Below are positions 4,095 to 17,407 of a DNA stretch of 64,000 bases, piece after piece. The DNA lies in the NCBI RefSeq assembly GCF_000147815.2, contig NC_015957.1, positions 6,944,001 through 7,008,000 on the forward strand, written 5' to 3'. The notes below the pieces were generated by a model. It was not told where the DNA came from and did not search any database. It saw only the letters and a program-made list of their open reading frames with translations. Source of the DNA: Streptomyces violaceusniger Tu 4113 (GTDB lineage Bacteria; Actinomycetota; Actinomycetes; Streptomycetales; Streptomycetaceae). Made by a program: the position numbers and the translations under genes. Every line of letters starts with the position of its first letter. The stretch's first letter is position 1.

Positions 4095-4868
4095 TTACGA
4101 CGGCACGCTCGCTCCGAGGCGTTGGGCCATCGCCCGTGCCCCATCGAGGACCAACTCGACGTAGTGCTCCTTCTCCGCGTCGCCCCACCGCGGGGTCGGT
4201 ACCGAGATGCTCATGGCCGCCACGCAGTTGCCGAGCCGGTCGTACACCGGCGCGGCGACACAGGCCGCGTGGTCATTGGACTCGCAGTACTCCTCGGTCC
4301 AGCCGCGCTCGCGGGCCTCTTCGACCTCGGCCAGCAGCCGCTTCCGCGTGGAGATGCTGTTCGACGTCATCTGCTGCAGCGCCTTGCCGTTCGGGAACAG
4401 CTCATCGAGCTCCCGGGCCGGCAGGGCGCTCAGCAGCGCCTTTCCGCCCGCGGTGCAGGACGCGAGCAGCCGGCTGCCCACCTGCGACACCAACCGGACC
4501 GAGTACTTGCTGTCGATGCGCACGATGAACACCGCATATTTGCCGTCCCGTACGACCACCTGGACCGTTTCGCCGCATGCCCGCGCCACCTCGCCGGCAC
4601 ACTCCCGGCCCACCGTGGCGAGGTCGAGCCCGCGCTCGTAACCGGCGCCGAGCCGCAGGGCGTTGAGCCCTATCGCGACGCGTCCGGTCTCCTTGGAGAC
4701 GGTCACATAGCCCCGGTCGGCCAGCGTGTTGACGAGCTCGTGCGTGGTGGCACGGGGCAGGCCGAGGTGCTGGGTGATTTCCGGAACCCGCAGCCCCTCG
4801 TCCTGGTCGACGAGCAGCTCCAGGATGTCCAGGCCCCGGCGCAGGGCCGGAGCGGTGAGTCGCGCCAC
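4095..4868 (-). CDS. IclR-family transcriptional regulator
   Basis: 257 aa using the GTG at 4866-4868, which has a strong GGGAGG six bases upstream; a GTG at 4886 in frame lacks a ribosome site. Winged helix at residues ~10-65 (EITQHLGLPRATTHELVNTL), then the IclR ligand domain with SKYSVRLVSQVGSR, CTAGGKALLSAL and the C-terminal GNCVAAMSIS motif. IclR proteins bind short palindromes and often control catabolic clusters for small acids, lactones or aromatics. Its own promoter carries sequence resembling the palindromes of the 9.3-12.5 kb regulon, making it the best local candidate for that regulon's regulator (inference). Confidence 0.93.
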   Translation of the reverse strand: MARLTAPALRRGLDILELLVDQDEGLRVPEITQHLGLPRATTHELVNTLADRGYVTVSKETGRVAIGLNALRLGAGYERGLDLATVGRECAGEVARACGETVQVVVRDGKYAVFIVRIDSKYSVRLVSQVGSRLLASCTAGGKALLSALPARELDELFPNGKALQQMTSNSISTRKRLLAEVEEARERGWTEEYCESNDHAACVAAPVYDRLGNCVAAMSISVPTPRWGDAEKEHYVELVLDGARAMAQRLGASVPS

Positions 4869-4892: not shown

Positions 4893-4926
4893 ACAGACGA
4901 CGTCCAAAATATCAGACGCCGAGGTG
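4893..4926. promoter_or_regulatory. IclR-gene promoter with degenerate copies of the regulon operator
   Basis: Read on the minus strand toward the IclR gene, 4926-4906 contains GGCGTCTGATATTTTGGACG. This repeats the right half GCGTCT plus the ATATTT extension seen in the ALDH and SDR promoters. A second weak copy, ACAGACGACGTCCAA (4893-4907), matches the 6-3-6 palindrome at most positions. The GATATT element could be the -10 box, so binding would repress. Pattern seen directly; regulator identity inferred. Confidence 0.55.
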
Positions 4927-4945: not shown

Positions 4946-5620
4946 TCAGTCGTTCGCGGGTGCGTCCCCGTGGGGTGCCGGATCGGACTCGGGCTCGGGC
5001 AGTGGCTCGGCGTTGCGGGCACGGAGGCCGTCGAGGGAGATACGGAGCAGGCGGCGCCACTGGCCGGGGTGGCTGTCTCCGGTCGCCTGGACGATCTGAC
5101 TCAGGGATGCGCTGAGCAGGACCAGGTCGGCGGTGGTGACACCGGCGCGCAGGAGGCCGGCGTTCAGGCAGCGGGTGCGCAGTTCGTCGATGAAGGCGTC
5201 GCGGTACTGGGCACACGCGCGCGAGGGGGCGCCGGTGGCGGCGTAGCTCTCGACCATGGCGCGGTTGCGGGCCTGATGCGTGAGGGTCTGCTCGAAGAAG
5301 CCGGTCAGGGCCTCCCAGGGGTCTTCGGTCGCCTCCGCCGCCTCGTGGGCGGCGGTGAGCCAGCAGGTGAACTCCCGCTCCAGGACGGTGGCGAGCAGGT
5401 CGTCCTTGGTCGGGAAGTGGCGGTAGAGCGTGCCCATGCCGACGCCGCTGCGCCGGGCGATCTCGCGGACGTCGACCGTGCCGCCCCGTTCGGCGAAGAC
5501 CACCCCGGCCGCCTCGATGATCGCGGCGCGGTTGCGCTCGGCGTCCGCCCGGCGGGCGCGCTTGGCCGGGGGCTGCGTTGCCGGGGGTTGCGTGGGCGTG
5601 GACTGGTCGGCGCTGGTCAC
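4946..5620 (-). CDS. TetR-family regulator
   Basis: 224 aa, GTG start at 5618-5620. HTH at residues ~30-75: RNRAAIIEAAGVVFAERGG, VDVREIARRSGVGMGTLYRHFPTKDDLL; the C-terminal ligand domain is of the SACE_7040/YbjK-like type common in Streptomyces. It is divergent to an F420-reductase-like gene with two operator-like inverted repeats between them, so autoregulation plus control of that neighbour is likely. Confidence 0.93.
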   Translation of the reverse strand: MTSADQSTPTQPPATQPPAKRARRADAERNRAAIIEAAGVVFAERGGTVDVREIARRSGVGMGTLYRHFPTKDDLLATVLEREFTCWLTAAHEAAEATEDPWEALTGFFEQTLTHQARNRAMVESYAATGAPSRACAQYRDAFIDELRTRCLNAGLLRAGVTTADLVLLSASLSQIVQATGDSHPGQWRRLLRISLDGLRARNAEPLPEPESDPAPHGDAPAND

Positions 5621-5646
5621 GGCATTCAGCGTACAAGCGGCCTTTG

Positions 5647-5696
5647 CGGAGCGCTCGCTCCGGTTGTGTTACCTTCAAGGGGAGCACTCGCTCCGG
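5647..5696. promoter_or_regulatory. Two TetR operator-like inverted repeats
   Basis: Perfect 7-2-7 palindrome CGGAGCG-CT-CGCTCCG at 5647-5662, and a second imperfect copy GGGAGCACTCGCTCCG at 5680-5695, 33 bp apart (three helical turns). Both lie between the TetR start (5620) and the divergent oxidoreductase start (5808), the usual position for TetR operators. Confidence 0.8.
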
Positions 5697-5807
5697 TTTG
5701 GTGGCGCGAGAGGCCCAGACCTCCGCACGCCTGCTCCCGCCCGAGCCCGGCTCCCAGACAGAACCGCCGGCGGACCACCGGTCCGTCAGATGAGGAGACC
5801 TCCTTCC

Positions 5808-6578
5808 ATGGCAACACTTGGCTTCATCGGCAGCGGTCGCATCGGCACGAAGATCGCCCGGCTCGCGATCGCGGCGGGGATCGACGTCGTCCTGTCCAAT
5901 TCCCGCGGGCCCCAGACCCTGACCGAGACGGTCGCGGAGCTCGGGGAGCGCGCCCGGGCCGCGACGCCCGAGGAGGCGGCCCGAGCGGGCGACTGGGTCG
6001 TGGTGAGCATCCCGCTGACCCCCTACCAGCAGCTTCCGGCGGCCGCGCTGGCGGGCAAGGTCGTGCTCGACACGATCAACTACTACCCGTTCCGCGACGG
6101 GGACTTCGAGGTGCTCGACTCGGGCGAGACCACCACGAGCGAACTCATCCAGAAGCACCTGACCGGCGCGAAGCTCGTCAAGGCGTTCAACAACATCGCC
6201 GACGGGCACATCCCGGCGCTCGCCCGCCCCGCGGGAGCCGCCGACCGCTCCGCGCTGCCGATCGCCGGCGACGACCCGGAGGCGAAGGCGAGCGCCGCCG
6301 CCCTCATCGACCGGCTGGGCTTCGACACCGTCGACGCGGGCCCCCTGGCCGAGAGCTGGCGCTTCGAGCCGGAGACCGCGGCTTACGTGGCGCCTTATTA
6401 CGCCGACACCGACGCGTTGAAGGAATTCGTGGCCACGATGAGCGAGGAGATCAGGGCGGGCCGCCCGATGCAGACCCTGCCCCCCAAGGACCCGGGCACC
6501 CCGCTGTCCGCGCACCAACTGCGCGCCCTGCTGGCCGAGACGCCCCGCGTCCTCCCTGCCGACCGCGCGATGCGCTGA
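5808..6578 (+). CDS. NADPH-dependent F420 reductase-like oxidoreductase
   Basis: 256 aa, ATG at 5808, GAGGAGA upstream. N-terminal dinucleotide fold GFIGSGRIGTKIARLAIAAG with VVLSNSRGP (NADPH-type Ser-Arg after strand 2), then WVVVSIPLTPY and LVKAFNNI, all features of the NpdG/F420-dependent NADP reductase family. The C-terminal ~60 residues (ESWRFEPETAAYV...) are longer than in archaeal Fno, as in actinobacterial homologues called NAD(P)-binding proteins. It probably reduces NADP+ or a small quinone/flavin-like partner; true F420 use cannot be proven. Controlled by the divergent TetR. Confidence 0.8.
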   Translation: MATLGFIGSGRIGTKIARLAIAAGIDVVLSNSRGPQTLTETVAELGERARAATPEEAARAGDWVVVSIPLTPYQQLPAAALAGKVVLDTINYYPFRDGDFEVLDSGETTTSELIQKHLTGAKLVKAFNNIADGHIPALARPAGAADRSALPIAGDDPEAKASAAALIDRLGFDTVDAGPLAESWRFEPETAAYVAPYYADTDALKEFVATMSEEIRAGRPMQTLPPKDPGTPLSAHQLRALLAETPRVLPADRAMR

Positions 6579-7359: not shown

Positions 7360-8151
7360 TCAGATGACGTCGAGGGCGATCCGGCCCAGCTCGCCGAGGT
7401 CGGCGACCAGGCGGTCACCCGCGCTGATCGCCGTCGGGGCGCACAGAGTGCCGCTCAGGACGATGTCCCCGGCTTCCAGTCGCCGTCCGCCGCGCAGCAG
7501 GTGTTGGGCCAGCCACGCGACCGCCTCGGCGGGGTCGCCCATGACGGCGGTCGCGCTCCCCGGCACCGTCCGGGAGCCGATCGACAGCGTGGCGGTGATT
7601 TTCACCAGGTCCGCAGACGCCGGTGGGGCGACCGGGGACCCCAGCAGCGCGCGAGCGGCGTTGGTGTTGTCGGCCACGAGCATGGGGAGCGTTCGCGCGC
7701 CGCCGCGCCACCTGCTGTCGACGATCTCGAAGGCCGGTGCGACCGCGGCGGTGGCGTTGCGGACGTCCTCCGCGGTGACCTGCGGGCCGGGCAGCGCCTC
7801 GCCCAGGATGAACGCGATCTCCACCTCCGCCATGGGAGCGAACAGCCCGGCCGTGGCGAGGGGTTCGCCGTCCCCCAGCAGCCGGTCGGCGAGCAGGTGG
7901 CCCGCGGCGGGCTCGTCGGCGCCGAAGGTGTCCCGCACGGGCTGTGCCGTGAGGCCGACCTTGTAGCCGATCACCCGACCACCGGCCGCGATCGCCAGCT
8001 CGCGGGTCGCGCTCTCGACGGCGTAGGCCATTTCGAGGTCATCGAGCTGATCGGCCGCGGCGGCGTCGACCGCGGTGGAGTCGTCCGCGGTGGCCTCGTT
8101 ACCGGCTTGCCACAGCCGTCGGCCCAGGTCCGCGGTCAGGTTCTTCCTCAT
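7360..8151 (-). CDS. 2-keto-4-pentenoate hydratase-like enzyme (MhpD/FAH superfamily)
   Basis: 263 aa, ATG at 8149-8151. Matches 2-oxopent-4-enoate / 2-oxohept-4-ene-1,7-dioate hydratases: IGYKVGLTAQPVRDTFGADEPAAGHLL, metal-binding EVEIAFILGE, AFEIVDSRW, and the C-terminal LEAGDIVLSGTLCAPTAISAGD. The known reaction adds water to a 2-keto-4-enoate to give a 4-hydroxy-2-keto acid in meta-cleavage pathways; decarboxylase partners share the fold. The gene starts 10 bp after the stop of the upstream Zn-ADH, so the two form an operon under the palindrome at 9314-9328. Confidence 0.88.
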   Translation of the reverse strand: MRKNLTADLGRRLWQAGNEATADDSTAVDAAAADQLDDLEMAYAVESATRELAIAAGGRVIGYKVGLTAQPVRDTFGADEPAAGHLLADRLLGDGEPLATAGLFAPMAEVEIAFILGEALPGPQVTAEDVRNATAAVAPAFEIVDSRWRGGARTLPMLVADNTNAARALLGSPVAPPASADLVKITATLSIGSRTVPGSATAVMGDPAEAVAWLAQHLLRGGRRLEAGDIVLSGTLCAPTAISAGDRLVADLGELGRIALDVI

Positions 8152-8161
8152 CGGTCTCTCC

Positions 8162-9271
8162 CTACGAGCGCTGGTGACCAGGGATGATCACAGCACGGCC
8201 GGTGGCGCCCTGCGACAGCGCGGCGTAAGCCTCGTTGATCGCCGACAGTTCGTATTGTTCCCCGAGCAGCTTGTCGAGGGGCAGGCGGCCGGTCTTGAAC
8301 AGTTCGACGAGCTTGGGGATGTCGACCGGTGTGTTGGCCGAGCCGTAGAGGCTGCCGATCAGCCGCTTCTCCTGCTGTACCAGGGGGTTGATCGGTACAG
8401 CCGCGGTGGCGCCCGCCTTGCCGAGGCCGACGGCGACGGCGGTGCCGCCGGTGCCCACGACCTCGACCGCCTGGGCGAGCGTCTGAGGCGTGCCGACCGC
8501 GTCCAGCGACCAGGCCATCGGTTTCGGCGAGATCCTGGTGAGTTCCTCTGCGAGGCGGTGCGTACGGGCGTTGACCGCATGGCTGGCGCCCAGCTCAAGT
8601 GCCTTCTCCAGCTTGGCGTCCACCGTGTCGACCGCGACGATCGGATCGGCGCCGACGAGGCGCAGCCCCATCACCGCACTGAGCCCGACGCCACCGGCGC
8701 CGATGACCACGACGCCCTCTCCGGTGGCGTCCTTCATGACGTTCAGCGCCGCACCGGCCCCGGTCACCACGGCGCATCCGGCGATCGCCGCGATCTCCGG
8801 AGGGATGTCCGGGTCGATCGTGAGGACCGACCGTTCCGAGACGACGCATTGCTCGGCGAAGCAGGAGACCCCCATGAGGTGGTGGACCTTCTCGCCGTTC
8901 AGGTTCAGCCGCTGGGTCCCGTCGAGCAGGCCGCCCGAGGCCGCCTGCACCCGGCCGAGCGCGCACAGGGCGGGGCGGCCGGTCGTACAGAACTCGCAGT
9001 CGCCGCACCGCGGGCGCCACAAGGTGATGACGGTGTCGCCGGGGCGGACCCGGGTCACCCCCTCCCCCACCCGCTCGACGATGCCGGTCCCTTCATGCCC
9101 GAGCACCGCGGGCAGGCGGACGTTGAGGTCGCCGTTCATGTAGTGCAGATCGCTGTGGCACACGCCGGCGGCGAGCACGCGGAGGGTGACCTCGCCCGGT
9201 CCGGGGTCGTCGAGATCGACGTCCTCGACGGTCAACGGCGCACCGGGCCGGTGCAGTACTGCTGCCTTCAT
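8162..9271 (-). CDS. Zinc-dependent alcohol dehydrogenase (class III-like)
   Basis: 369 aa using ATG at 9269-9271 (MKAAVLHRPG; GAGG upstream); a GTG five codons earlier lacks a ribosome site. Catalytic zinc Cys38, His59, Glu60 (VCHSDLHY; LGHEGTGIVE); full structural-zinc set Cys89, Cys92, Cys95, Cys103 (CGDCEFCTTGRPALC); NAD site VVIGAGGVGLSAVMG followed by AVD, indicating NAD+ preference. This is the NDMA-dependent/mycothiol-like class of alcohol dehydrogenases used for primary alcohols or hydroxyacids. First gene of a two-gene operon with the hydratase. Confidence 0.92.
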   Translation of the reverse strand: MKAAVLHRPGAPLTVEDVDLDDPGPGEVTLRVLAAGVCHSDLHYMNGDLNVRLPAVLGHEGTGIVERVGEGVTRVRPGDTVITLWRPRCGDCEFCTTGRPALCALGRVQAASGGLLDGTQRLNLNGEKVHHLMGVSCFAEQCVVSERSVLTIDPDIPPEIAAIAGCAVVTGAGAALNVMKDATGEGVVVIGAGGVGLSAVMGLRLVGADPIVAVDTVDAKLEKALELGASHAVNARTHRLAEELTRISPKPMAWSLDAVGTPQTLAQAVEVVGTGGTAVAVGLGKAGATAAVPINPLVQQEKRLIGSLYGSANTPVDIPKLVELFKTGRLPLDKLLGEQYELSAINEAYAALSQGATGRAVIIPGHQRS

Positions 9272-9313
9272 TGAGCCACGCCTCACTGTGTACGGATCAC
9301 CGTGTACGAAACT

Positions 9314-9328
9314 TCAGACGCCGTCTTA
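9314..9328. promoter_or_regulatory. Operator palindrome upstream of the Zn-ADH/hydratase operon
   Basis: TCAGACGCCGTCTTA, a 6-3-6 inverted repeat ending 43 bp before the ADH start. On the minus strand it reads TAAGACGGCGTCTGA followed by AGTTT, the same order as the other regulon promoters. A partial relative, TGAGCCCGTCTCA, lies at 9354-9366. Confidence 0.75.
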
Positions 9329-9421
9329 CGGGTTGTCTTGCGGGTTGAGTATGTGAGCCCGTCTCAGCCGCCGTCAAGCGCGTTGACGAGTGCGCCGACG
9401 CATGCAACTGTGTCTTGAGAT

Positions 9422-9447
9422 TGAGACTGCGTCTCATATTTAAGACG
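9422..9447. promoter_or_regulatory. Operator palindrome plus -10-like ATATTT upstream of the aldehyde dehydrogenase
   Basis: TGAGACTGCGTCTCA at 9422-9436 is a perfect 6-3-6 palindrome. It runs into CATATTTAAGAC, so a CATATT -10 candidate abuts the right half-site. The SDR promoter at 12450-12475 has the same arrangement almost base for base. Confidence 0.82.
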
Positions 9448-9466
9448 AATTGAGGGAGCGTGCTTG

Positions 9467-10903
9467 ATGACCGATGCGACCAATGCACAGGTCCTGGCGC
9501 ATAAACTCGACGCCGCAGCAGACGCGTTCGAGCAGTGGAGCCGCCTCCAGTCGGCCGACCGGGCCCCGTTTCTCGAGGCCATCGCCTCCGCACTCGAAGA
9601 GGCCGCGCCGAAGCTCGTGACGATCGCGGACGAGGAGACGTCCCTCGGGCAGCCCCGGCTGCGGAACGAAATGGTCCGTACGGTGTTCCAGCTACGGCTC
9701 TTCGCCGAGGTGGTGACGCGGGGGGAATACCTCGGGGCCGCGATCGACCGCGCCGACCCCGCGTGGCCGATGGGCCCGCGGCCCGATCTGCGCCGGGTGC
9801 TCGAACCACTCGGTCCCGTGGTCGTCTTCGCCGCGAGCAACTTCCCGTTCGCGTTCAGCGTGGCGGGCGGGGACACCGCCTCGGCGCTCGCGGCGGGCTG
9901 CCCGGTCGTGGTCAAGGCCCACTCCGGCCACCCCAGGCTCTCGGCCGCCACGGCGGAGGTGGTGCACCACGCACTGCGGTCCGCGGGCGCACCCGATGGG
10001 CTCTTCGACGTGGTCTTCGGTACGGAGGCGGGCCGGGCCGCCATCGTGGACTCGCGGGTGAAGGCGGGCGCGTTCACCGGATCGATCGAGGCGGGCCGGA
10101 CGCTTTTCGACCTCGCCACGGGCCGTCCGGAGCCCATACCGTTCTTCGGCGAACTCGGCAGCGTCAACCCGGTGTTCGTGACGGAGGCCGCCGCCGAGCG
10201 GCGCGGGCCCGAGATCGTCTCGGAGTTCGCCGGCTCGTTCACGCTCGGCGCCGGACAGTTCTGCACCAAGCCCGGCATCCTGCTGGTCCCGGCCGCGGCC
10301 AAGCTGGTGGACCGGCTTCCCGGCGCGGTTCCGGGCGAGGCGTTGGCGTTGCTCAACGATCGCATCCGGACCTCCTATGCGAGTGCGGTGCGGGAGTTGC
10401 GCGATACGGCCGGGGTGCGGGTCGTGGTGAGTGGCGACCACGCCGCCGCCGATCCGTCGCCGACGGTGCTGTGCACGACCTCGGCCGAACTCCTCGGTGA
10501 CCCCGAGGCGCTCATACGCGAGGTGTTCGGACCGGCCGCGCTGGTCGTCGAGTACGCGGAGGAGAGCGAACTGCTCGACGTGGCGAAGGTCATCGACGGA
10601 CAACTGACCGCGTCCATCCAGGGCGAGGACGACGACACCATCGCAGCGGAGTTGATCAGGCTCCTGGCCGCCAAGGCCGGACGTGTGCTCTGGAACCAGT
10701 GGCCCACGGGCGTGTCGGTCACCTATGCCCAGCAGCACGGCGGCCCCTACCCGGCCACCACCGCGCCGGGTACGACTTCGGTAGGGACCGAGGCCATCTC
10801 CCGGTTCCTGCGGCCGGTCGCCTATCAGGGCGTGCCGCAGCACCTGCTGCCGCCCGCCCTGCGCGACGCCAACCCGCTCGGGATCCCCCAACGGGCCTCC
10901 TGA
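9467..10903 (+). CDS. NADP-dependent aldehyde dehydrogenase (alpha-ketoglutarate semialdehyde type)
   Basis: 478 aa, ATG at 9467 with GAGGGAG upstream. ALDH fold with Lys150 (VVVKAHSGHP), Glu229 (FFGELGSVNP) and nucleophile Cys266 (GAGQFCTKPG). The N-terminal part and FPFAFSVAGGDTASALAAGCPVVVKAHSGHP-type segment (read in pieces) resemble 2,5-dioxovalerate / succinate-semialdehyde-like dehydrogenases of acid-sugar and hydroxyacid pathways. Known family role: oxidise a terminal semialdehyde to a TCA-cycle acid. Divergent from the Zn-ADH operon, each side with a copy of the same operator, and convergent with the FMN hydroxyacid dehydrogenase. Confidence 0.9.
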   Translation: MTDATNAQVLAHKLDAAADAFEQWSRLQSADRAPFLEAIASALEEAAPKLVTIADEETSLGQPRLRNEMVRTVFQLRLFAEVVTRGEYLGAAIDRADPAWPMGPRPDLRRVLEPLGPVVVFAASNFPFAFSVAGGDTASALAAGCPVVVKAHSGHPRLSAATAEVVHHALRSAGAPDGLFDVVFGTEAGRAAIVDSRVKAGAFTGSIEAGRTLFDLATGRPEPIPFFGELGSVNPVFVTEAAAERRGPEIVSEFAGSFTLGAGQFCTKPGILLVPAAAKLVDRLPGAVPGEALALLNDRIRTSYASAVRELRDTAGVRVVVSGDHAAADPSPTVLCTTSAELLGDPEALIREVFGPAALVVEYAEESELLDVAKVIDGQLTASIQGEDDDTIAAELIRLLAAKAGRVLWNQWPTGVSVTYAQQHGGPYPATTAPGTTSVGTEAISRFLRPVAYQGVPQHLLPPALRDANPLGIPQRAS

Positions 10904-10943
10904 GGCCGGGCCGCAGCGCACGCGGCCAAGGGGCCGTGCGCAC

Positions 10944-10980
10944 GGGAAAGGGCCCGCTTCCCCCGGCGGGCCCCTTCCGT
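10944..10980. terminator. Bidirectional terminator hairpin
   Basis: Stem GGAAAGGGCCCGC (10945-10957) / GCGGGCCCCTTCC (10966-10978), 13 bp with one mismatch and an 8-nt loop. It stands between the stops of the convergent aldehyde dehydrogenase and FMN dehydrogenase genes. Confidence 0.8.
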
Positions 10981-11008
10981 ACCCGAACCGTTCACGGCAT
11001 ACGACCGC

Positions 11009-12304
11009 TCAAGGCATGCGGAGGTGATGCCGCGCGATGGCATCGCTCGCCTTCAGGCCGAGCAGTTGCAGGCTGCGTGCGTACTCCTCGCGCAGGATCG
11101 TGACGGCACGCTCCACGCCCCGCTCGCCACCGGCCATCAGGCCGTACAGATAGGCCCGGCCGATCATGACCGCGTCCGCCCCGAGTGCCCGCGCGGCGAG
11201 GATGTCCTGACCGTGTGTGACACCGCTGTCGAGGATGACCGTGGCGTCAGGGCCGAGCTCCTCGCGTATCCCGGGCAGCACCGTGAGGGTGGCCGGTGTG
11301 CGGTCGAGCTGCCGCCCGCCGTGGTTGGACACGATCACGCCGTCCGCGCCCCCCTCGACGACGCGGCGCGCGTCGCGCGGGCTGAGGACCCCCTTGACCA
11401 GCAACCGGTACGGCCAGTGGGCGCGCAGCCATGCCAGGTGCTCGTAGCTCAGCGTCGGTTCGAAGACGACGTCGGCGACCCGCACGGCGTCGATCGTGTC
11501 GCCGCTCACGCCACTCACACCGCCACCCATGCCACTCAGCGACGCGAACGTGATCGGGGCTGTGGTCAGCTTGTTCAGCGCCCAGGAGGGGTAGCGGGCC
11601 ATCCCGAACAGCGTCCGCAGGGTGAGCGAGGGCGGGATCGTGAGGCCGTTGCGCATGTCCTTCGGGTGCCGGCCCGCCACCGGTGTGTCGACGGTGAGGA
11701 CCACGGTGGTGAACCCGGCCGCGAGCGCGCGGTCGAGAAGCTCCGCGTTGAGGCGCTCGTTCCGGGTCAGGTAGAGCTGGAACCAGTGTTCGCCGCCGGG
11801 AGCCGCCGCGGCGACGTCCTCGACGGTCGAGGTGCCCACGGTGGACAGGGCGTAGGGCAGGCCGTGGCGGGCGGCCACGCGCGCGACCGCCGCCTCACCC
11901 TCGTGGTGCATCATCCGGGTGTAACCGGTCGGCGCGAAGATCAGCGGCATCGCGATCTCGCGGCCGAACAGCCGCGTGGACAGGTCCGGATGGTCGACCG
12001 GCGACAGGTACTCCGGCACGAGTTCGACCGCCGCGAACGCCGCCCTGCTGCGCCGCGCGGTCAGCTCCGCGTCGGCCGCGCCGTCGACGTAGTCGAACAC
12101 CGCACGCGGGGTCGTGCGCACCGCCACCGCGCGCAGATCGCCGATGGTCAGCGCGGCCCCGAGCCGCCGCTCGACCGGATTGAGGGTCGGCCGGCGCAGT
12201 TGCAGAACCTCCCGGAGCTCGGTCCACCGGGGTCGCTGCCGCGCCACACGAGGCCGCTTGGGGGCTGCGGATGCCGCTTGGGGCTGGGTGCCGGTCACTG
12301 TCAT
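11009..12304 (-). CDS. FMN-dependent 2-hydroxyacid dehydrogenase/oxidase (lactate dehydrogenase-like)
   Basis: 431 aa, ATG at 12302-12304. TIM-barrel flavoprotein: PRAVFDYVDGAADAE near the N-terminus, MPLIFAPTGYTRMMHHEGE, LTVDTPVAGRHPKDMRNG, LLVKGVLSPRDA (flavin Lys), and the active-site signature VSNHGGRQLDRTPATL with catalytic His and substrate-binding Arg; then VILDSGVTHGQDILAARALGADAVMIGRAYLYGL. The family oxidises L-2-hydroxyacids (lactate, glycolate, mandelate) to 2-keto acids. The ~35-residue N-terminal extension is not membrane-spanning. Its promoter carries the palindrome TCAGACGCTGTCTGA. Confidence 0.92.
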   Translation of the reverse strand: MTVTGTQPQAASAAPKRPRVARQRPRWTELREVLQLRRPTLNPVERRLGAALTIGDLRAVAVRTTPRAVFDYVDGAADAELTARRSRAAFAAVELVPEYLSPVDHPDLSTRLFGREIAMPLIFAPTGYTRMMHHEGEAAVARVAARHGLPYALSTVGTSTVEDVAAAAPGGEHWFQLYLTRNERLNAELLDRALAAGFTTVVLTVDTPVAGRHPKDMRNGLTIPPSLTLRTLFGMARYPSWALNKLTTAPITFASLSGMGGGVSGVSGDTIDAVRVADVVFEPTLSYEHLAWLRAHWPYRLLVKGVLSPRDARRVVEGGADGVIVSNHGGRQLDRTPATLTVLPGIREELGPDATVILDSGVTHGQDILAARALGADAVMIGRAYLYGLMAGGERGVERAVTILREEYARSLQLLGLKASDAIARHHLRMP

Positions 12305-12352
12305 GCCTCTCGGTGTGCGGGTGTCGAAGGCCGTTCGACGAACGACGAGATA

Positions 12353-12367
12353 TCAGACGCTGTCTGA
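12353..12367. promoter_or_regulatory. Operator palindrome upstream of the FMN dehydrogenase
   Basis: Perfect 6-3-6 palindrome TCAGAC-GCT-GTCTGA, 48 bp before the FMN dehydrogenase start. On the minus strand it is followed by TATCTC, matching the ATATTT position of sister sites. It shares the intergenic region with the site at 12450. Confidence 0.8.
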
Positions 12368-12449
12368 GAAATCGGAGTCTCGCTCGTCGTTTCGGCGGGC
12401 GTCAAGCCTTGACGTGCGCCGCACACGTGGGCACCATCTGGTTTGTATA

Positions 12450-12475
12450 TGAGACAGCGTCTTATATTTCAGACA
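12450..12475. promoter_or_regulatory. Operator palindrome plus TATATT -10 upstream of the SDR operon
   Basis: TGAGACAGCGTCTTA at 12450-12464, running into TATATTTCAGACA. The TATATT at 12463-12468 is a good -10 hexamer, so the palindrome occupies the -10/-35 spacer, as expected of a repressor site. AGGAAGG before the ATG at 12488 is the ribosome site. Confidence 0.82.
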
Positions 12476-12487
12476 TAGGAAGGTGCC

Positions 12488-13261
12488 ATGCAACTCGGTC
12501 TGGCAGGCAAAACCGCCCTCATCTGTGCGTCCACCTCCGGTCTCGGCCGGGCGACCGCCCGGGCCCTGGCGGAGGAAGGCGTCACCGTCGTGGTCACGGG
12601 CCGCTCGGGCGAACGGGCCAAGGAGGTGGCGGGCGAGCTGCCCAACGCGGTCGGCGTGGGCTGCGACCTGGTCGCGGACGGCGGCGCGGAGCGGCTCCTC
12701 ACGGCGGCCCGCGAGGCCGTCGGCGACCTCGACATCCTCGTACTGAACGGGCCGGGGCCAACGCCCGGACCCGCCCGCGCCATCGACACCGCCGGGGTCG
12801 AGCAGGCCATCGCCACGCTGGTGACACCCCAGCAGATCCTGGTGCGGGGCACCCTGCCCGCCATGGTCGAGAAGGGGTGGGGCCGCATCCTGAGCATCAG
12901 CTCGACGAGCGTGCAGGCGCCCCTGCCGAACCTTTCGCTGTCCAACCTCGGGCGGGCCGCGCTCGCCGGATACCTCAAAACCCTCGCCGCCGAAGTCGCC
13001 GCCCACGGCGTGACGGTCAACTCCCTGCTTCCCGGGCGCATCGCCACCCCGCGCGCCCGGCAGATCGACGAGGCCGCCGCCCAGCGCACCGGCCAGTCAC
13101 TGGACGAGGTCGAGGCCGCGTCCAAGGCCACGATCCCGGCCGGGCGCTACGGCGACCCCGCTGAGTTCGGCGCCGTCGCCGCGTTTCTGTGCAGCACCCA
13201 GGCCGCGTACGTCACGGGCAGTGCCCTGCGGTGTGACGGCGGCATGGTGCCAACTCTCTGA
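12488..13261 (+). CDS. SDR-family protein lacking the Tyr-Lys catalytic pair
   Basis: 257 aa, ATG 12488, preceded by AGGAAGG. Classical short-chain dehydrogenase length and fold: cofactor motif CASTSGLGRATA (TGxxxGxG variant), VTGRSGER (NADP-type Arg), C-terminal GRYGDPAEFGAVAAFLCS and GSALRCDGGMVPTL. The YxxxK position reads S152-N-L-G-R156 after the Ser138-140 cluster, and NNAG is replaced by LNGPGPTPG. A subset of bacterial '3-oxoacyl-ACP reductase-like' SDRs shares this altered pattern, so it is probably a stable subfamily and not a dead gene. First gene of a five-gene run. Confidence 0.85.
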   Translation: MQLGLAGKTALICASTSGLGRATARALAEEGVTVVVTGRSGERAKEVAGELPNAVGVGCDLVADGGAERLLTAAREAVGDLDILVLNGPGPTPGPARAIDTAGVEQAIATLVTPQQILVRGTLPAMVEKGWGRILSISSTSVQAPLPNLSLSNLGRAALAGYLKTLAAEVAAHGVTVNSLLPGRIATPRARQIDEAAAQRTGQSLDEVEAASKATIPAGRYGDPAEFGAVAAFLCSTQAAYVTGSALRCDGGMVPTL

Positions 13262-13311: not shown

Positions 13312-14664
13312 ATGAGCCATATTCCCGTCACCGACACAGCAACCGACGCCAGAGCCGGCCAGTCCCCCGTGGCTCCCCGGGCCGCCTCCGCCATCCGCCG
13401 AACGGCCCTGGCGGGCATGATCGGCACCACGATCGAGTGGTACGACTTCTACATCTACGGCCTCGCCGCGGCACTGGTCTTCGGCACGGAGTTCTTTCCC
13501 GACTTCTCACCGGCGGCCGGCACGCTGGCCGCGTTCGCCACCTTCGCGGTCGGCTTCATCGCCCGCCCGCTCGGCGGAGTGATCTTCGGTCACTTCGGGG
13601 ACCGCGTGGGGCGCAAGAACGCGCTCATGCTCACGCTGTTCCTGATGGGCGCGGCGACCGTCATCGTCGGCCTGCTGCCGGGCTTCCAGACCATCGGCAT
13701 CTGGGCGCCCATCCTGCTGGTCACGCTGCGCTTCCTCCAGGGCTTCGCGGTCGGCGGTGAGTGGGGCGGCGCGGTGACCATGGTCGTGGAGTCCTCGCCA
13801 CGGGACCGGCGCGGCTTCTACGGGAGCCTGCCGCAGATGGGTGTGCCGCTGGGGCTGGTGCTCTCGTCGACCGTGTTCGCGGCGGTCTCCACGCTGCCCG
13901 ATGACGACCTCCTCGCCTGGGGCTGGCGCATCCCCTTCCTGCTCAGCATCGTGCTGATCGCGGTCGGACTGTTCCTCCGTTCGCGCATCACCGAGACACA
14001 GACGTTCGTCCAGGTGAAGGCGTCGGGGCGGGCGCGCAAGATGCCGGCCATGGAGGCGTTCCGCCACCACGGGAAGGCGATCGCCCTCACCGTCGGCATG
14101 TATGTCTCGGCCGGTGTCCCCTTCTACATCGTCTCGGTTTTCGTGCTGTCCTACGGCTCATCCCACCTTGGTCTCTCGCGGAGTGTGCTGCTGACCGGGA
14201 TGCTCATCGCGGCGGTGGCCGAGGCGCTGACGGTGCCCTGCTTCGGCGCGCTGTCGGACCGATGGGGCCGGCGGCCCGTGTTCCTGAGCGCCGCCGCGTT
14301 CACGGCCGTTCTCGCCTTCCCGTTCTTCTGGCTGCTGGCGACCGGGCAGACGGGGCTCGCCTGGCTGGCCATGCTGCTCGCGCTCGCCGTGGCGCACGCG
14401 GGGATGTACGCGCCCACCGCGGCGCTGTACGCGGAACTGTTCCCCGCGAACGTCCGGTACACCGGTACGTCGATCGGCTATCAACTCGGCGGTGTCGTGG
14501 CCGGGTTCGTGCCGCTCGTGGCGGGCGCACTCGTCAACGCGGCCGACGGCGCCTCGTGGCCGATCGCCGCCATCTGGGCGGGAGCGGCACTGATCGGGCT
14601 GGTCTGCGCGCTGATCGTCCGGGAATCCCGGGGCCGCGATCTGCACCCCCACCACGACACCTGA
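13312..14664 (+). CDS. MFS importer, metabolite:H+ symporter (MHS/ShiA-like) family
   Basis: 450 aa with 12 predicted membrane segments. MHS hallmarks: GTTIEWYDFYIYGLAAALVF in helix 1, loop GHFGDRVGRKNAL, RFLQGFAVGGEWGGAV, and the second-half loop DRWGRRPV. Known relatives import shikimate, alpha-ketoglutarate, proline/betaine or small organic acids with protons. Position between the SDR and the lactonase suggests it brings in the substrate of this pathway. Start ATG 13312 follows the SDR stop by 50 bp. Confidence 0.92.
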   Translation: MSHIPVTDTATDARAGQSPVAPRAASAIRRTALAGMIGTTIEWYDFYIYGLAAALVFGTEFFPDFSPAAGTLAAFATFAVGFIARPLGGVIFGHFGDRVGRKNALMLTLFLMGAATVIVGLLPGFQTIGIWAPILLVTLRFLQGFAVGGEWGGAVTMVVESSPRDRRGFYGSLPQMGVPLGLVLSSTVFAAVSTLPDDDLLAWGWRIPFLLSIVLIAVGLFLRSRITETQTFVQVKASGRARKMPAMEAFRHHGKAIALTVGMYVSAGVPFYIVSVFVLSYGSSHLGLSRSVLLTGMLIAAVAEALTVPCFGALSDRWGRRPVFLSAAAFTAVLAFPFFWLLATGQTGLAWLAMLLALAVAHAGMYAPTAALYAELFPANVRYTGTSIGYQLGGVVAGFVPLVAGALVNAADGASWPIAAIWAGAALIGLVCALIVRESRGRDLHPHHDT

Positions 14665-14752: not shown

Positions 14753-15562
14753 ATGACCGCCAACAAAGTCCACGTACTGAGCTGCGGAGCGATGAGCTGC
14801 GATCTGACGTGGCTGCTGCTCAAGGCCGGCCGTACGATGCGGACGCGCACCGAGCACCAGCGGCCGCCCGAGTGGTACTCCTGCACCACCCACTGCGTCC
14901 TCGTGGAAACCCCCGGGGGCACCCTGCTGTGGGACACAAGCTGTCCCCGCGACTGGGAGACCCGCTGGGCCCCGACCGGTCTGCAGGAGTACTTCCCCTA
15001 CGACCGGGTGAGCGACGAGGAGTATCTCGACGCGCGGCTCGGCCAGCTCGGCGTCCAACCGCAGGACATCGACTACCTGGTCCTGTCCCATCTGCACTTC
15101 GACCACGCCGGGAACATCGGCATGTTCACCGGCACCGGCGCGAAGCTGGTGTGCCACGAGAGGGAGAAGGAGTTCGCCTTCGGCTTCGACGGCGCCTTCA
15201 ACGGTGCCCATCTCAAGGCGGACTACGCGGCGTGTGATTTCGACACCGTCAGCGGCGACACCGAGATCCTGCCCGGCGTCACCCTCATCGAGGCCCCCGG
15301 GCACACCCCCGGCACCATGGCGATGAAGGTCGAACTGCCGGAGACCGGGACCATGCTCTTCACCTCGGACGCCGTCTATATGGGTGACTCCTACGGGCCG
15401 CCGGCCACCCCCGCCGCCATCGTCAACGATCTGTCCGCCTGGTACGGCTCGGTGGAGAAGCTCCGCGGCATCGCCGAGCAGTCGGACGCCACCGTCGTCT
15501 TCGGCCACGACGCCGAGCAGTTGCGCTCGATGCGGCTCGCCCCCAGCGGCTTCTACGCCTGA
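14753..15562 (+). CDS. Metallo-beta-lactamase-fold lactonase, AttM/BlcC (AHL lactonase) type
   Basis: 269 aa, ATG 14753, GGAGGTGAAG upstream. Dinuclear zinc motif His113-Leu-His115-Phe-Asp117-His118, then His184 (APGHTPG), Asp206 (TSDAVYM) and a C-terminal GHD (VVFGHDAEQL). The N-terminal VLSCGAMSCD and the closing LAPSGFYA match the AttM/AiiB branch of lactonases, which in Agrobacterium open gamma-butyrolactone to 4-hydroxybutyrate (BlcC) as well as acyl-homoserine lactones. Its next neighbour is a 4-hydroxybutyrate-type Fe-ADH, strengthening a lactone-opening role. Alternative: another ester or lactone substrate. Confidence 0.85.
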   Translation: MTANKVHVLSCGAMSCDLTWLLLKAGRTMRTRTEHQRPPEWYSCTTHCVLVETPGGTLLWDTSCPRDWETRWAPTGLQEYFPYDRVSDEEYLDARLGQLGVQPQDIDYLVLSHLHFDHAGNIGMFTGTGAKLVCHEREKEFAFGFDGAFNGAHLKADYAACDFDTVSGDTEILPGVTLIEAPGHTPGTMAMKVELPETGTMLFTSDAVYMGDSYGPPATPAAIVNDLSAWYGSVEKLRGIAEQSDATVVFGHDAEQLRSMRLAPSGFYA

Positions 15563-15639: not shown

Positions 15640-16929
15640 ATGAGCACCACCGCTCCGGCCGGACCCGAGTCCGTTTTCACCTACGGCGCCCCGGCGCTGA
15701 AGTTCGGGCCGGGAGCATCCGACGAGATCGGCTACGACCTCGCCCAGCACGGGGCCCGCCGGGTCCTCGTGATCACCGACGCGGGGGTGGCCGCCACCGG
15801 CGCGCCGCACCGCATCGCCGAGCGGATGACCGCGTTCGGCATCGAAGCCCACGTCTTCGACGGCGTCCACGTGGAGCCCACCGACGTCAGCCTGCGGCAG
15901 GCCGTGGACCACGCGCTGGCGTCGGGCCCGTGGGACGCCTTCGTCGCGGTGGGCGGCGGCTCCAGCATCGACACCGCCAAGGCCGTCAACCTGCTGAGCA
16001 CCAACCCCGGCGAGCTGATGGACTACATCAACGCGCCGGTGGGCAGGGCGCTGGCGCCCGCGAACCCGCTGGGGCCGCTGGTCGCGGTTCCCACCACCAC
16101 CGGAACCGGCGCGGAGAGCACCACCATCTGTGTGCTCGACGTCCTGGAACTGAAGGTCAAGACCGGCATCAGCCACGCCCGCCTGCGGCCCACGCTCGCG
16201 GTCATCGACCCGGACCTGACCTTCACCCAGCCCGCCGGGGTGACCGCCGCCAGCGGCATGGACATCCTGTGCCACGCGCTGGAGAGCTACACGGCCCGCC
16301 CGTACGACACCTACCCGCACAAGCGCCCCGAGCAGCGCGTGCCGTACTGCGGCGCCAATCCCATCTCCGACGCGTGGTCGGAACGGGCGCTGCACCTGCT
16401 CGCGCAGTCCTTCCGCACCGCGGTCCGCGACGGCGACAATCCCCAGGCGCGTTCCGACATGGCGCTGGCGGCAACCTTCGCCGGCCTCGGATTCGGCAAC
16501 GCGGGCGTCCACATCCCCCACGCCAACGCCTACCCGATCGCCGGACGGGTGAAGGACTTCCACCCCGCCGGCTACCCCGCACACGAGCCGATGGTGCCCC
16601 ACGGCATGGCGGTCTCGCTCACCGCGCCGGAGGCGTTCCGCTTCACCTTCTCCGCCCGGCCCGAGCGGCATCTGCGGGCCGCGGAACTCCTCGCCCCGGG
16701 GATGGAACGCCCCGCCGACCCCGCCGAGTATCTGCCCACCGCGATCGAGCAGTTGATGCGCGACATCGGCATGCCCAACGGCATCGGCGGTGTCGGCTAC
16801 GGCGAGGGAGACATCCCGGCGCTGGTGGAAGGCGCCATGAAGCAGCAGCGACTGCTGTCCACCGCCCCGCGCACGGTCACCGAGGACGACGTGGCCGGCA
16901 TCCTCGACCGCTCTCTGACGCTCTGGTGA
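15640..16929 (+). CDS. Iron-containing alcohol dehydrogenase, hydroxyacid-oxoacid transhydrogenase-like
   Basis: 429 aa, ATG 15640, AGGAGGG upstream. Type III ADH: GGGSSIDTAKAVNLL, PTTTGTGAESTTICVL, and metal ligands in SGMDILCHALESY, GVHIPHANAYPIAG and MVPHGMAVSL. Length, the HKRPEQRVPYCGANPISD insert and the GVHIPHA region match the ADHFE1/HOT branch, which oxidises 4-hydroxybutyrate while reducing 2-oxoglutarate to 2-hydroxyglutarate. Next to a lactonase it would take the ring-opened hydroxyacid to a semialdehyde, which the ALDH at 9467 could finish (inference). Confidence 0.87.
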   Translation: MSTTAPAGPESVFTYGAPALKFGPGASDEIGYDLAQHGARRVLVITDAGVAATGAPHRIAERMTAFGIEAHVFDGVHVEPTDVSLRQAVDHALASGPWDAFVAVGGGSSIDTAKAVNLLSTNPGELMDYINAPVGRALAPANPLGPLVAVPTTTGTGAESTTICVLDVLELKVKTGISHARLRPTLAVIDPDLTFTQPAGVTAASGMDILCHALESYTARPYDTYPHKRPEQRVPYCGANPISDAWSERALHLLAQSFRTAVRDGDNPQARSDMALAATFAGLGFGNAGVHIPHANAYPIAGRVKDFHPAGYPAHEPMVPHGMAVSLTAPEAFRFTFSARPERHLRAAELLAPGMERPADPAEYLPTAIEQLMRDIGMPNGIGGVGYGEGDIPALVEGAMKQQRLLSTAPRTVTEDDVAGILDRSLTLW

Positions 16930-16942
16930 TGTGAGGGACCCC

Positions 16943-17407
16943 ATGGCCATCTATGAACTCGCCTGCGAGACCGGACACCGCTTCGAGGTGATCCAGTCGT
17001 ACACCGCACCGCTGCCGAGCTGCCCGGAGTGCGGCGGCGCCACCCGCAAGATACCCAGCAGCTTCGCCCTGGGTGGCGCCGCCACCGTGCCACCGCCGCC
17101 GGAGCGGATGCCGCAGACCTGGAAGGGAACGTATCGCGGCGACCGTGACTACGTCACCGACCTGCGGCGCACGGCCGAATCCCGGCAGAAGCTGGAGGAC
17201 AAGTACCCCGAACTCGCCGGCGACCGGCGGCCGATCGTCGCTCACGAAGGCAGATACGAGGGAGCCCCGCTGCGCGCGGGCGACACACCATCCGCTCCCT
17301 CCGAGGGGGCCGGGCACGGCCACTCTCACGGGCACTCGCATGCACACGGCCATGACCATGGCCACGCTCACGGGAGCGCCAAGAGCCGCCCCGCAGCAGG
17401 CGACTGA
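16943..17407 (+). CDS. FmdB-like zinc-ribbon protein with a histidine-rich tail
   Basis: 154 aa, ATG at 16943 (GAGGG upstream), 13 bp after the Fe-ADH stop. Residues 1-40 are an FmdB-type ribbon, MAIYELACETGHRFEV...SCPECGGATRKI, with the first knuckle reduced to Cys-x3-His. Residues ~115-145 are strongly His-rich, alternating with Gly, Ser and Ala. FmdB proteins accompany amidase and oxidoreductase genes with unclear roles; the His tail suggests binding or delivery of Fe, Zn or Ni, possibly to the adjacent metal-dependent enzymes (inference). Confidence 0.8.
   Translation: MAIYELACETGHRFEVIQSYTAPLPSCPECGGATRKIPSSFALGGAATVPPPPERMPQTWKGTYRGDRDYVTDLRRTAESRQKLEDKYPELAGDRRPIVAHEGRYEGAPLRAGDTPSAPSEGAGHGHSHGHSHAHGHDHGHAHGSAKSRPAAGD

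Follow-up and report, generated by a model that had tools for sequence, protein, structure and literature searches.

A shared multi-box operator points to one IclR-family regulon in a catabolic gene cluster of Streptomyces violaceusniger Tu 4113

A 64,000-nucleotide stretch of the Streptomyces violaceusniger Tu 4113 genome (NC_015957.1, positions 6,944,001 to 7,008,000; called the window here, with positions numbered from its first letter) carries a catabolic gene cluster that very probably forms a single, autoregulated regulon governed by the IclR-family protein whose gene lies at 4095-4868, with putative binding sites before five transcription units of about ten genes in all. The predicted units are a zinc-dependent alcohol dehydrogenase (ZnADH) with an FAA-hydrolase-fold protein (FAAH); an aldehyde dehydrogenase (ALDH); a flavin mononucleotide (FMN)-dependent alpha-hydroxyacid dehydrogenase; an SDR-family dehydrogenase followed by an MFS transporter, a lactonase-like hydrolase, an iron-containing alcohol dehydrogenase (FeADH) and a small FmdB-like protein; and iclR itself (Table 1). 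The original prediction, that one regulator, most likely this IclR protein, serves some ten genes, gains support from the multi-box, IclR-type form of the sites, from an operator at iclR and from the presence of ZnADH and ALDH at 12 of 13 loci with an IclR orthologue.

The sites were first recognized as four 15-base palindromes of the form TNAGAC-N3-GTCTNA, which do start at 9314, 9422, 12353 and 12450, one upstream of each of the ZnADH, ALDH, hydroxyacid dehydrogenase and SDR units. The window holds no other exact match (0.02 expected from shuffles), and the whole genome (11,138,313 bases) holds six, four of them in the cluster, against none for the reversed-pattern control; the strict form is also absent from the 79 control loci described below. 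The two matches outside the cluster (C3:349297 and C3:1126943) were rejected as regulon members, as one (L123) spans the start of an open reading frame (ORF), the other (L124) precedes a small hypothetical ORF, and neither has an outer box at N8 spacing; the second, at L124:5444-5458, is a perfect TTAGACTCTGTCTAA palindrome. A match with two mismatches at 15365-15379 was not counted either, since it falls within the lactonase gene; relatives share it at that position, where it is probably kept as coding sequence.

When 47 sites of the window and of Streptomyces-type relatives are aligned, the palindrome proves to be the inner portion of a more extended operator, RGAC-N3-GTCY-N8-RGAC, in which the inner pair is followed by eight mostly A/T bases and then by RGAC or a decayed copy of it. 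The ATATTTnAGAC noticed earlier directly after two of the four palindromes is indeed common to them and corresponds to the N8 spacer plus the outer RGAC box. A right half with ATATTT had likewise been reported at the iclR promoter; this element is real, but the description was incomplete, taking in the outer pair alone, as the stretch runs on into GGAC-GTC-GTCT with the inner pair and yields a full three-box operator at 4893-4917. By contrast, the proposed NGC centre applies to the four window sites and does not extend to relatives, which have AAC, GAC, AGT, TCT, TAT and others. The outer pair GTCYNAWAYWTNNGAC occurs at three places in the genome, all in the cluster (iclR, ALDH and SDR promoters), with one forward and no reverse match for the control. 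All five operators stand 13 to 73 base pairs (bp) upstream of the start codons of ZnADH, ALDH, the hydroxyacid dehydrogenase, SDR and iclR. The regulator's own promoter thus carries the same type of operator as the enzyme genes, and its inner pair is exact in 10 of the 11 Streptomyces-type loci (window included), with one mismatch in L138; L044, L045 and L140 likewise have the operator at iclR. At the ALDH promoter a four-box form is found in 9 of the 11 (not in L040 and L137) when RGAY is allowed in the second box. As a side observation, the ZnADH and ALDH palindromes are 108-109 bp apart in the window, L134 and L135 vs. 96 bp in L037 and L117, and the former three have an additional AGAC-like half-site before the ZnADH operator (9329-9347 in the window).

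This form agrees with what has been reported for the IclR family. A comparative survey describes two arrangements of similar half-sites, group 1 being NGTYCRAW4TYGRACN, and predicts that 32 orthologous groups of the family use three-box sites of alternating direction (Suvorova and Gelfand 2021, PMC8222616). The boxes at the iclR, ALDH and SDR promoters likewise alternate in direction and combine one group 1 with one group 2 pair, and the centres of their tandem pairs are 19 bp apart, where the survey gives 18-22 nucleotides, with most site centres 20-80 nucleotides before start codons (PMC8222616). The four boxes at the ALDH promoter, in contrast, differ from the surveyed three-box sites. Among individual motifs of the survey, that of HutR from Corynebacterium resistens (GTCTGWWATWCCAGAC) contains the same GTCT-N8-AGAC pair as the cluster, and that of IphR from Comamonas (GTCTCATCAGAC) is followed by a downstream half-site ATGGAC; HutR is listed for histidine and IphR for isophthalate use (PMC8222616); their likeness to the cluster IclR is one of motif. 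As a further point of agreement with the cluster, dehydrogenases of COG1028 and COG1012 are over-represented in the 12-spaced subgroup (PMC8222616). The form of the operator therefore points to an IclR-family protein independently of gene neighbourhood.

A matrix of 25 positions was trained on 38 distinct sites, all taken from Streptomyces-type loci, so that training sites and Streptomyces-type counts share loci and the held-out loci L044, L045 and L140 are the independent ones. All three of these iclR-cluster loci contain the operator. In Arthrobacter pascens (L044) the matrix scored 35.0 and 34.8 at the ZnADH and iclR promoters, and in a putative Jiangella (L140) 36.3 at the iclR promoter and 34.0 beside a MaoC gene, while a metagenome-assembled genome (L045) gave 19.9 and 19.5 at the ALDH and ZnADH promoters and six matches above 14.9, the highest score in the 79 control loci (1.52 Mb). 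The controls comprised 74 of the best 80 ALDH loci, namely L041-L116 apart from L044 and L045, together with L118-L122. Of the latter, L118 comes from the opposite end of the G020 contig, and L121 is apparently the same contig as L103 (both of length 213304), so that one control is doubled. Block-shuffled copies (n = 60) reached 17.3 for L044 and 16.7 for L140, clearly below the real scores. The 34.0 site of L140 (5035-5059) lies between the MaoC-like gene and another ORF, which may bring additional genes into the regulon of this locus; two ORFs of this locus (5071-6525 and 11222-12286) had no Pfam match and may be miscalled.

Among the best 80 ALDH loci kept from the ALDH search, five (L037, L038, L040, L044 and L045) carry the IclR protein at 62-91% identity, all with ZnADH at 70-94%; L039 shares the gene order from ALDH onward, its contig ending just upstream. 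With IclR as query (E 1e-70), the protein was found in 8 of 392 genomes of the genus and 2 of 394 of the class, the S. violaceusniger genome being counted in each, and in 1 of 22 genomes of the family of G606, namely G606 itself; the genus and class searches, like the phylum draw below, scored six first-look candidates per genome and may have missed orthologues. Thirteen of the loci fetched have an IclR orthologue (60-98%). Twelve of these contain ZnADH and ALDH (L037, L038, L040, L044, L045, L117, L134, L135 and L137-L140), including loci from Arthrobacter, the putative Jiangella, Allosalinactinospora and the metagenome-assembled genome, and the thirteenth (L136), at the end of a contig, has iclR alone. 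Unrelated regulators beside the same cluster were looked for as a sign against the IclR assignment, and none was found in the 12 loci. Distant ZnADH-ALDH pairs (L061, L066 and L086; ZnADH 52-59%) have another IclR protein or none, and lack the operator. In L037, L040, L117 and L045 iclR lies between FAAH and ZnADH, divergent from FAAH, and in the window it is 2.5 kilobases (kb) from FAAH. The intervening segment, a TetR-family gene and a reductase-like ORF (4946-6578), also separates iclR from the cluster in L038, L134, L135 and L137-L139.

Several observations weigh against a single IclR regulon, which is predicted from the sites themselves, their rarity, their co-occurrence with the IclR orthologue and their match to the IclR-family site type. 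In the window, iclR stands 4.4 kb from the nearest enzyme promoter with an operator, with the TetR gene between. Seven of the 13 IclR loci came from the IclR query itself and one more (G020) from both routes, and for loci found in this way the evidence lies solely in whether they also hold the cluster. Because the 11 Streptomyces-type loci resemble one another closely here, conservation among them is weak evidence by itself, and independent support comes from three loci, in one of which (L045) the best score of 19.9 was exceeded by a block-shuffled copy (24.1, n = 60). The outer box is poor at the ZnADH and hydroxyacid dehydrogenase operators, where the inner pair is good. Finally, with up to two mismatches the window holds 15 palindrome matches vs. 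10.8 expected, which is chance level, and the relaxed pattern TNRGACNNNGTCYNA occurs at 15 places in the genome vs. 17 for its reversed control and is non-specific; the signal is thus carried by the strict form together with the outer box.

As for promoters, an inverted pair of TTGACG hexamers, probably back-to-back -35 elements, lies in each of the two divergent regions. The pair between ZnADH and ALDH is present in all 11 Streptomyces-type loci (N5-spaced in 10 of them and N6-spaced in L139), as is that between the hydroxyacid dehydrogenase and SDR genes (N3 throughout). L045 keeps the pair, whereas in L044 its arms are separated by 100 bp, which fits -35 elements better than a palindrome bound by a second protein. 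Weak -10-like hexamers follow 17-18 bp beyond TTGACG; one of four scanned promoters passed a simple sigma-70 scan (ZnADH, 9377-9348), and the divergent region at 12400-12414 gave no promoter-like match in it.

The operators start 0 to about 20 bp downstream of the putative -10 elements, a position in which bound IclR protein would block initiation, and repression is accordingly the likely direction of control, given binding. Under the proposed mechanism, IclR dimers, probably two per site, would bind the alternating boxes GTCY-N8-RGAC-N3-GTCY-N8-RGAC just downstream of -10 and repress until a pathway substrate or intermediate releases them. PcaU, an IclR-type protein, is an activator, and it is conceivable, if rather unlikely, that the cluster IclR also binds but mainly activates, which would alter the direction of control and nothing else. 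The weak -10 hexamers and the single promoter passing the scan would suit activation, as would the three-box site of PcaU (PMC8222616); the placement of the operators just after -10 speaks against it.

A different regulator is improbable. Another IclR-family or other protein encoded elsewhere could share the specificity, as further IclR paralogues exist in the genome, with at most 47% identity to the cluster protein. However, paralogues at ten loci (45-47%) lack the operator (best score 5.6) and have other upstream sequence, of GTTCG/CGAAC type, and this IclR protein was the only one observed with the cluster in different genera. Plasmid records gave two IclR relatives, both at 45-47%, a draw of 396 genomes from the phylum (E 1e-52) added nothing but paralogues at 45-47%, and the SDR query found no relative among viral contigs. 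In ten genomes of the same genus (L141-L150) the paralogue has a conserved upstream TGTTCG...TCGAAC stretch, possibly its own operator.

Short palindromes are usual for TetR proteins, and a TetR homologue adjoins iclR in the window, L038, L134, L135, L137, L138 and L139. That this neighbour binds the palindromes is nevertheless very improbable: it has no match (tblastn, E 1e-8, 40% of query) in the fetched stretches of L037, L040, L117, L044, L045 and L140, all of which have iclR and the sites, and the operator is multi-box, with the N8 and N3 spacings reported for IclR proteins, and is present in the iclR promoter. A MerR protein of the window was rejected as regulator because none of the 13 IclR loci has a match to it. 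It is hardly credible that the palindromes are due to chance or are a regulator-free promoter feature, even though ATATTT could form part of a -10 element and the relaxed palindrome and its control are about equally common, given how rare the strict form and the outer pair are in 11.1 Mb and given the held-out matrix test.

Returning to the IclR regulon, the operators appear as arrays of two to four boxes, and we tentatively suggest, as a possibility on the weaker side of even, that one IclR protein pairs in two modes, on half-sites spaced by N8 or by N3, with the number and quality of boxes differing by promoter. A third box has been reported as needed for PcaU binding, and alternative dimerisation of IclR proteins is presented in the 2021 survey as a hypothesis awaiting experiment (PMC8222616).

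The genes and elements of the cluster are listed in Table 1. The GTG start of iclR was picked by alignment with orthologues starting MARLTAP or similar. A homologue of the probable last gene of the SDR operon, which we take to be FmdB-like from reading its sequence, lies downstream in all 10 Streptomyces-type relatives; FeADH had no match in L037, L040 and L117. Neighbours in L140 and L044 include a CoA-transferase and an acyl-CoA dehydrogenase, with an enoyl-CoA hydratase and the MaoC protein in addition in L140.

Table 1 Genes and putative regulatory elements of the cluster (window positions)
Feature	Position	Strand	Basis or remarks
IclR-family regulator	4095-4868	-	Pfam HTH_IclR 59.7 bits (cut-off 22) and IclR_C 130.7 bits (cut-off 24), both domains above cut-off
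iclR operator	4893-4917	+	Boxes AGAC 4895-4898, GTCC 4902-4905, AGAC 4914-4917; matrix score 35.7 (window in training set)
TetR-family protein	4946-5620		Pfam TetR_N 47.7 bits
FAAH, FAA-hydrolase fold, 2-keto-4-pentenoate hydratase-like	7360-8151	-	Family searches; downstream of ZnADH
ZnADH, zinc-dependent alcohol dehydrogenase	8162-9271	-	Family searches; start codon read from sequence
ZnADH-unit operator	9304-9328	-	AGAC-N3-GTCT-N8-GTAC, third box degenerate; includes palindrome 9314
Inverted pair CGTCAA-N5-TTGACG	9372-9388		Probable back-to-back -35 hexamers between ZnADH and ALDH
ALDH-unit operator	9412-9446	+	Four boxes, GTCT-N8-AGAC-N3-GTCT-N8-AGAC; includes palindrome 9422
ALDH, aldehyde dehydrogenase	9467-10903	+	Closest solved structure NADP+ ALDH 3v4c, next 1eyy
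FMN-dependent alpha-hydroxyacid dehydrogenase/oxidase	11009-12304	-	Family searches
Hydroxyacid dehydrogenase-unit operator	12343-12377	-	Inner palindrome 12353-12367, outer boxes imperfect
Inverted pair CGTCAA-N3-TTGACG	12400-12414		Probable back-to-back -35 hexamers between hydroxyacid dehydrogenase and SDR
SDR-unit operator	12450-12474	+	Three boxes, AGAC-N3-GTCT-N8-AGAC
SDR-family dehydrogenase	12488-13261	+	Family searches
MFS transporter, metabolite:H+ symporter / shikimate-transporter-like	13312-14664	+	Both below NCBIfam cut-offs
Metallo-beta-lactamase-fold lactonase-like hydrolase	14753-15562	+	Family searches
FeADH, iron-containing alcohol dehydrogenase	15640-16929	+	Family searches
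Small FmdB-like zinc-ribbon protein, probable last gene of SDR operon	16931-17407	+	ORF

The protein matches only point to the chemistry of an alcohol, an aldehyde, an alpha-hydroxy acid and a lactone. Conversion of an alcohol via an aldehyde to an acid appears the likeliest chemistry of the pathway because ZnADH and ALDH are the core in all 12 loci, with lactone opening as a proposed further step, and the substrate of the regulon is probably alcohol-like. In Agrobacterium, the IclR-type regulator BlcR goes with the blcABC operon, in which genes for a lactonase, an Fe-dependent alcohol dehydrogenase and an aldehyde dehydrogenase stand together. The cluster likewise joins an IclR-type regulator, a lactonase-like hydrolase, FeADH and ALDH, and the BlcR structure (3mq0) is the fourth-best solved relative of its IclR protein. 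ZnADH, FAAH, the hydroxyacid dehydrogenase, SDR and the MFS transporter, however, are additions relative to blcABC, and the hydrolase is closer to the GcL lactonase and reaches the cut-off of none of the 25 NCBIfam models listed. A blc-type reading was rejected, as the hydrolase reached 112.2 bits against a cut-off of 390 for AttM-type lactonases. BhcR of Paracoccus denitrificans is the best NCBIfam match of the cluster IclR, whose 156.9 bits are far under the equivalog cut-off of 350.

No title or abstract opening in the literature searched describes this regulon, and the supplementary tables of the IclR survey may list the group (PMC8222616). Control systems of this kind are known, and the regulon adds a well-supported new case to them. 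For a catabolic cluster present in few of the searched actinobacterial genomes it names a probable regulator, an operator and a gene list, and it yields a candidate sensor-operator pair. Its graded two- to four-box operators provide material for testing how IclR proteins pair on DNA, and if the cluster IclR does pair in two modes, a direct test of alternative dimerisation would become possible, in a regulon that serves an undescribed actinobacterial alcohol/lactone catabolic pathway.

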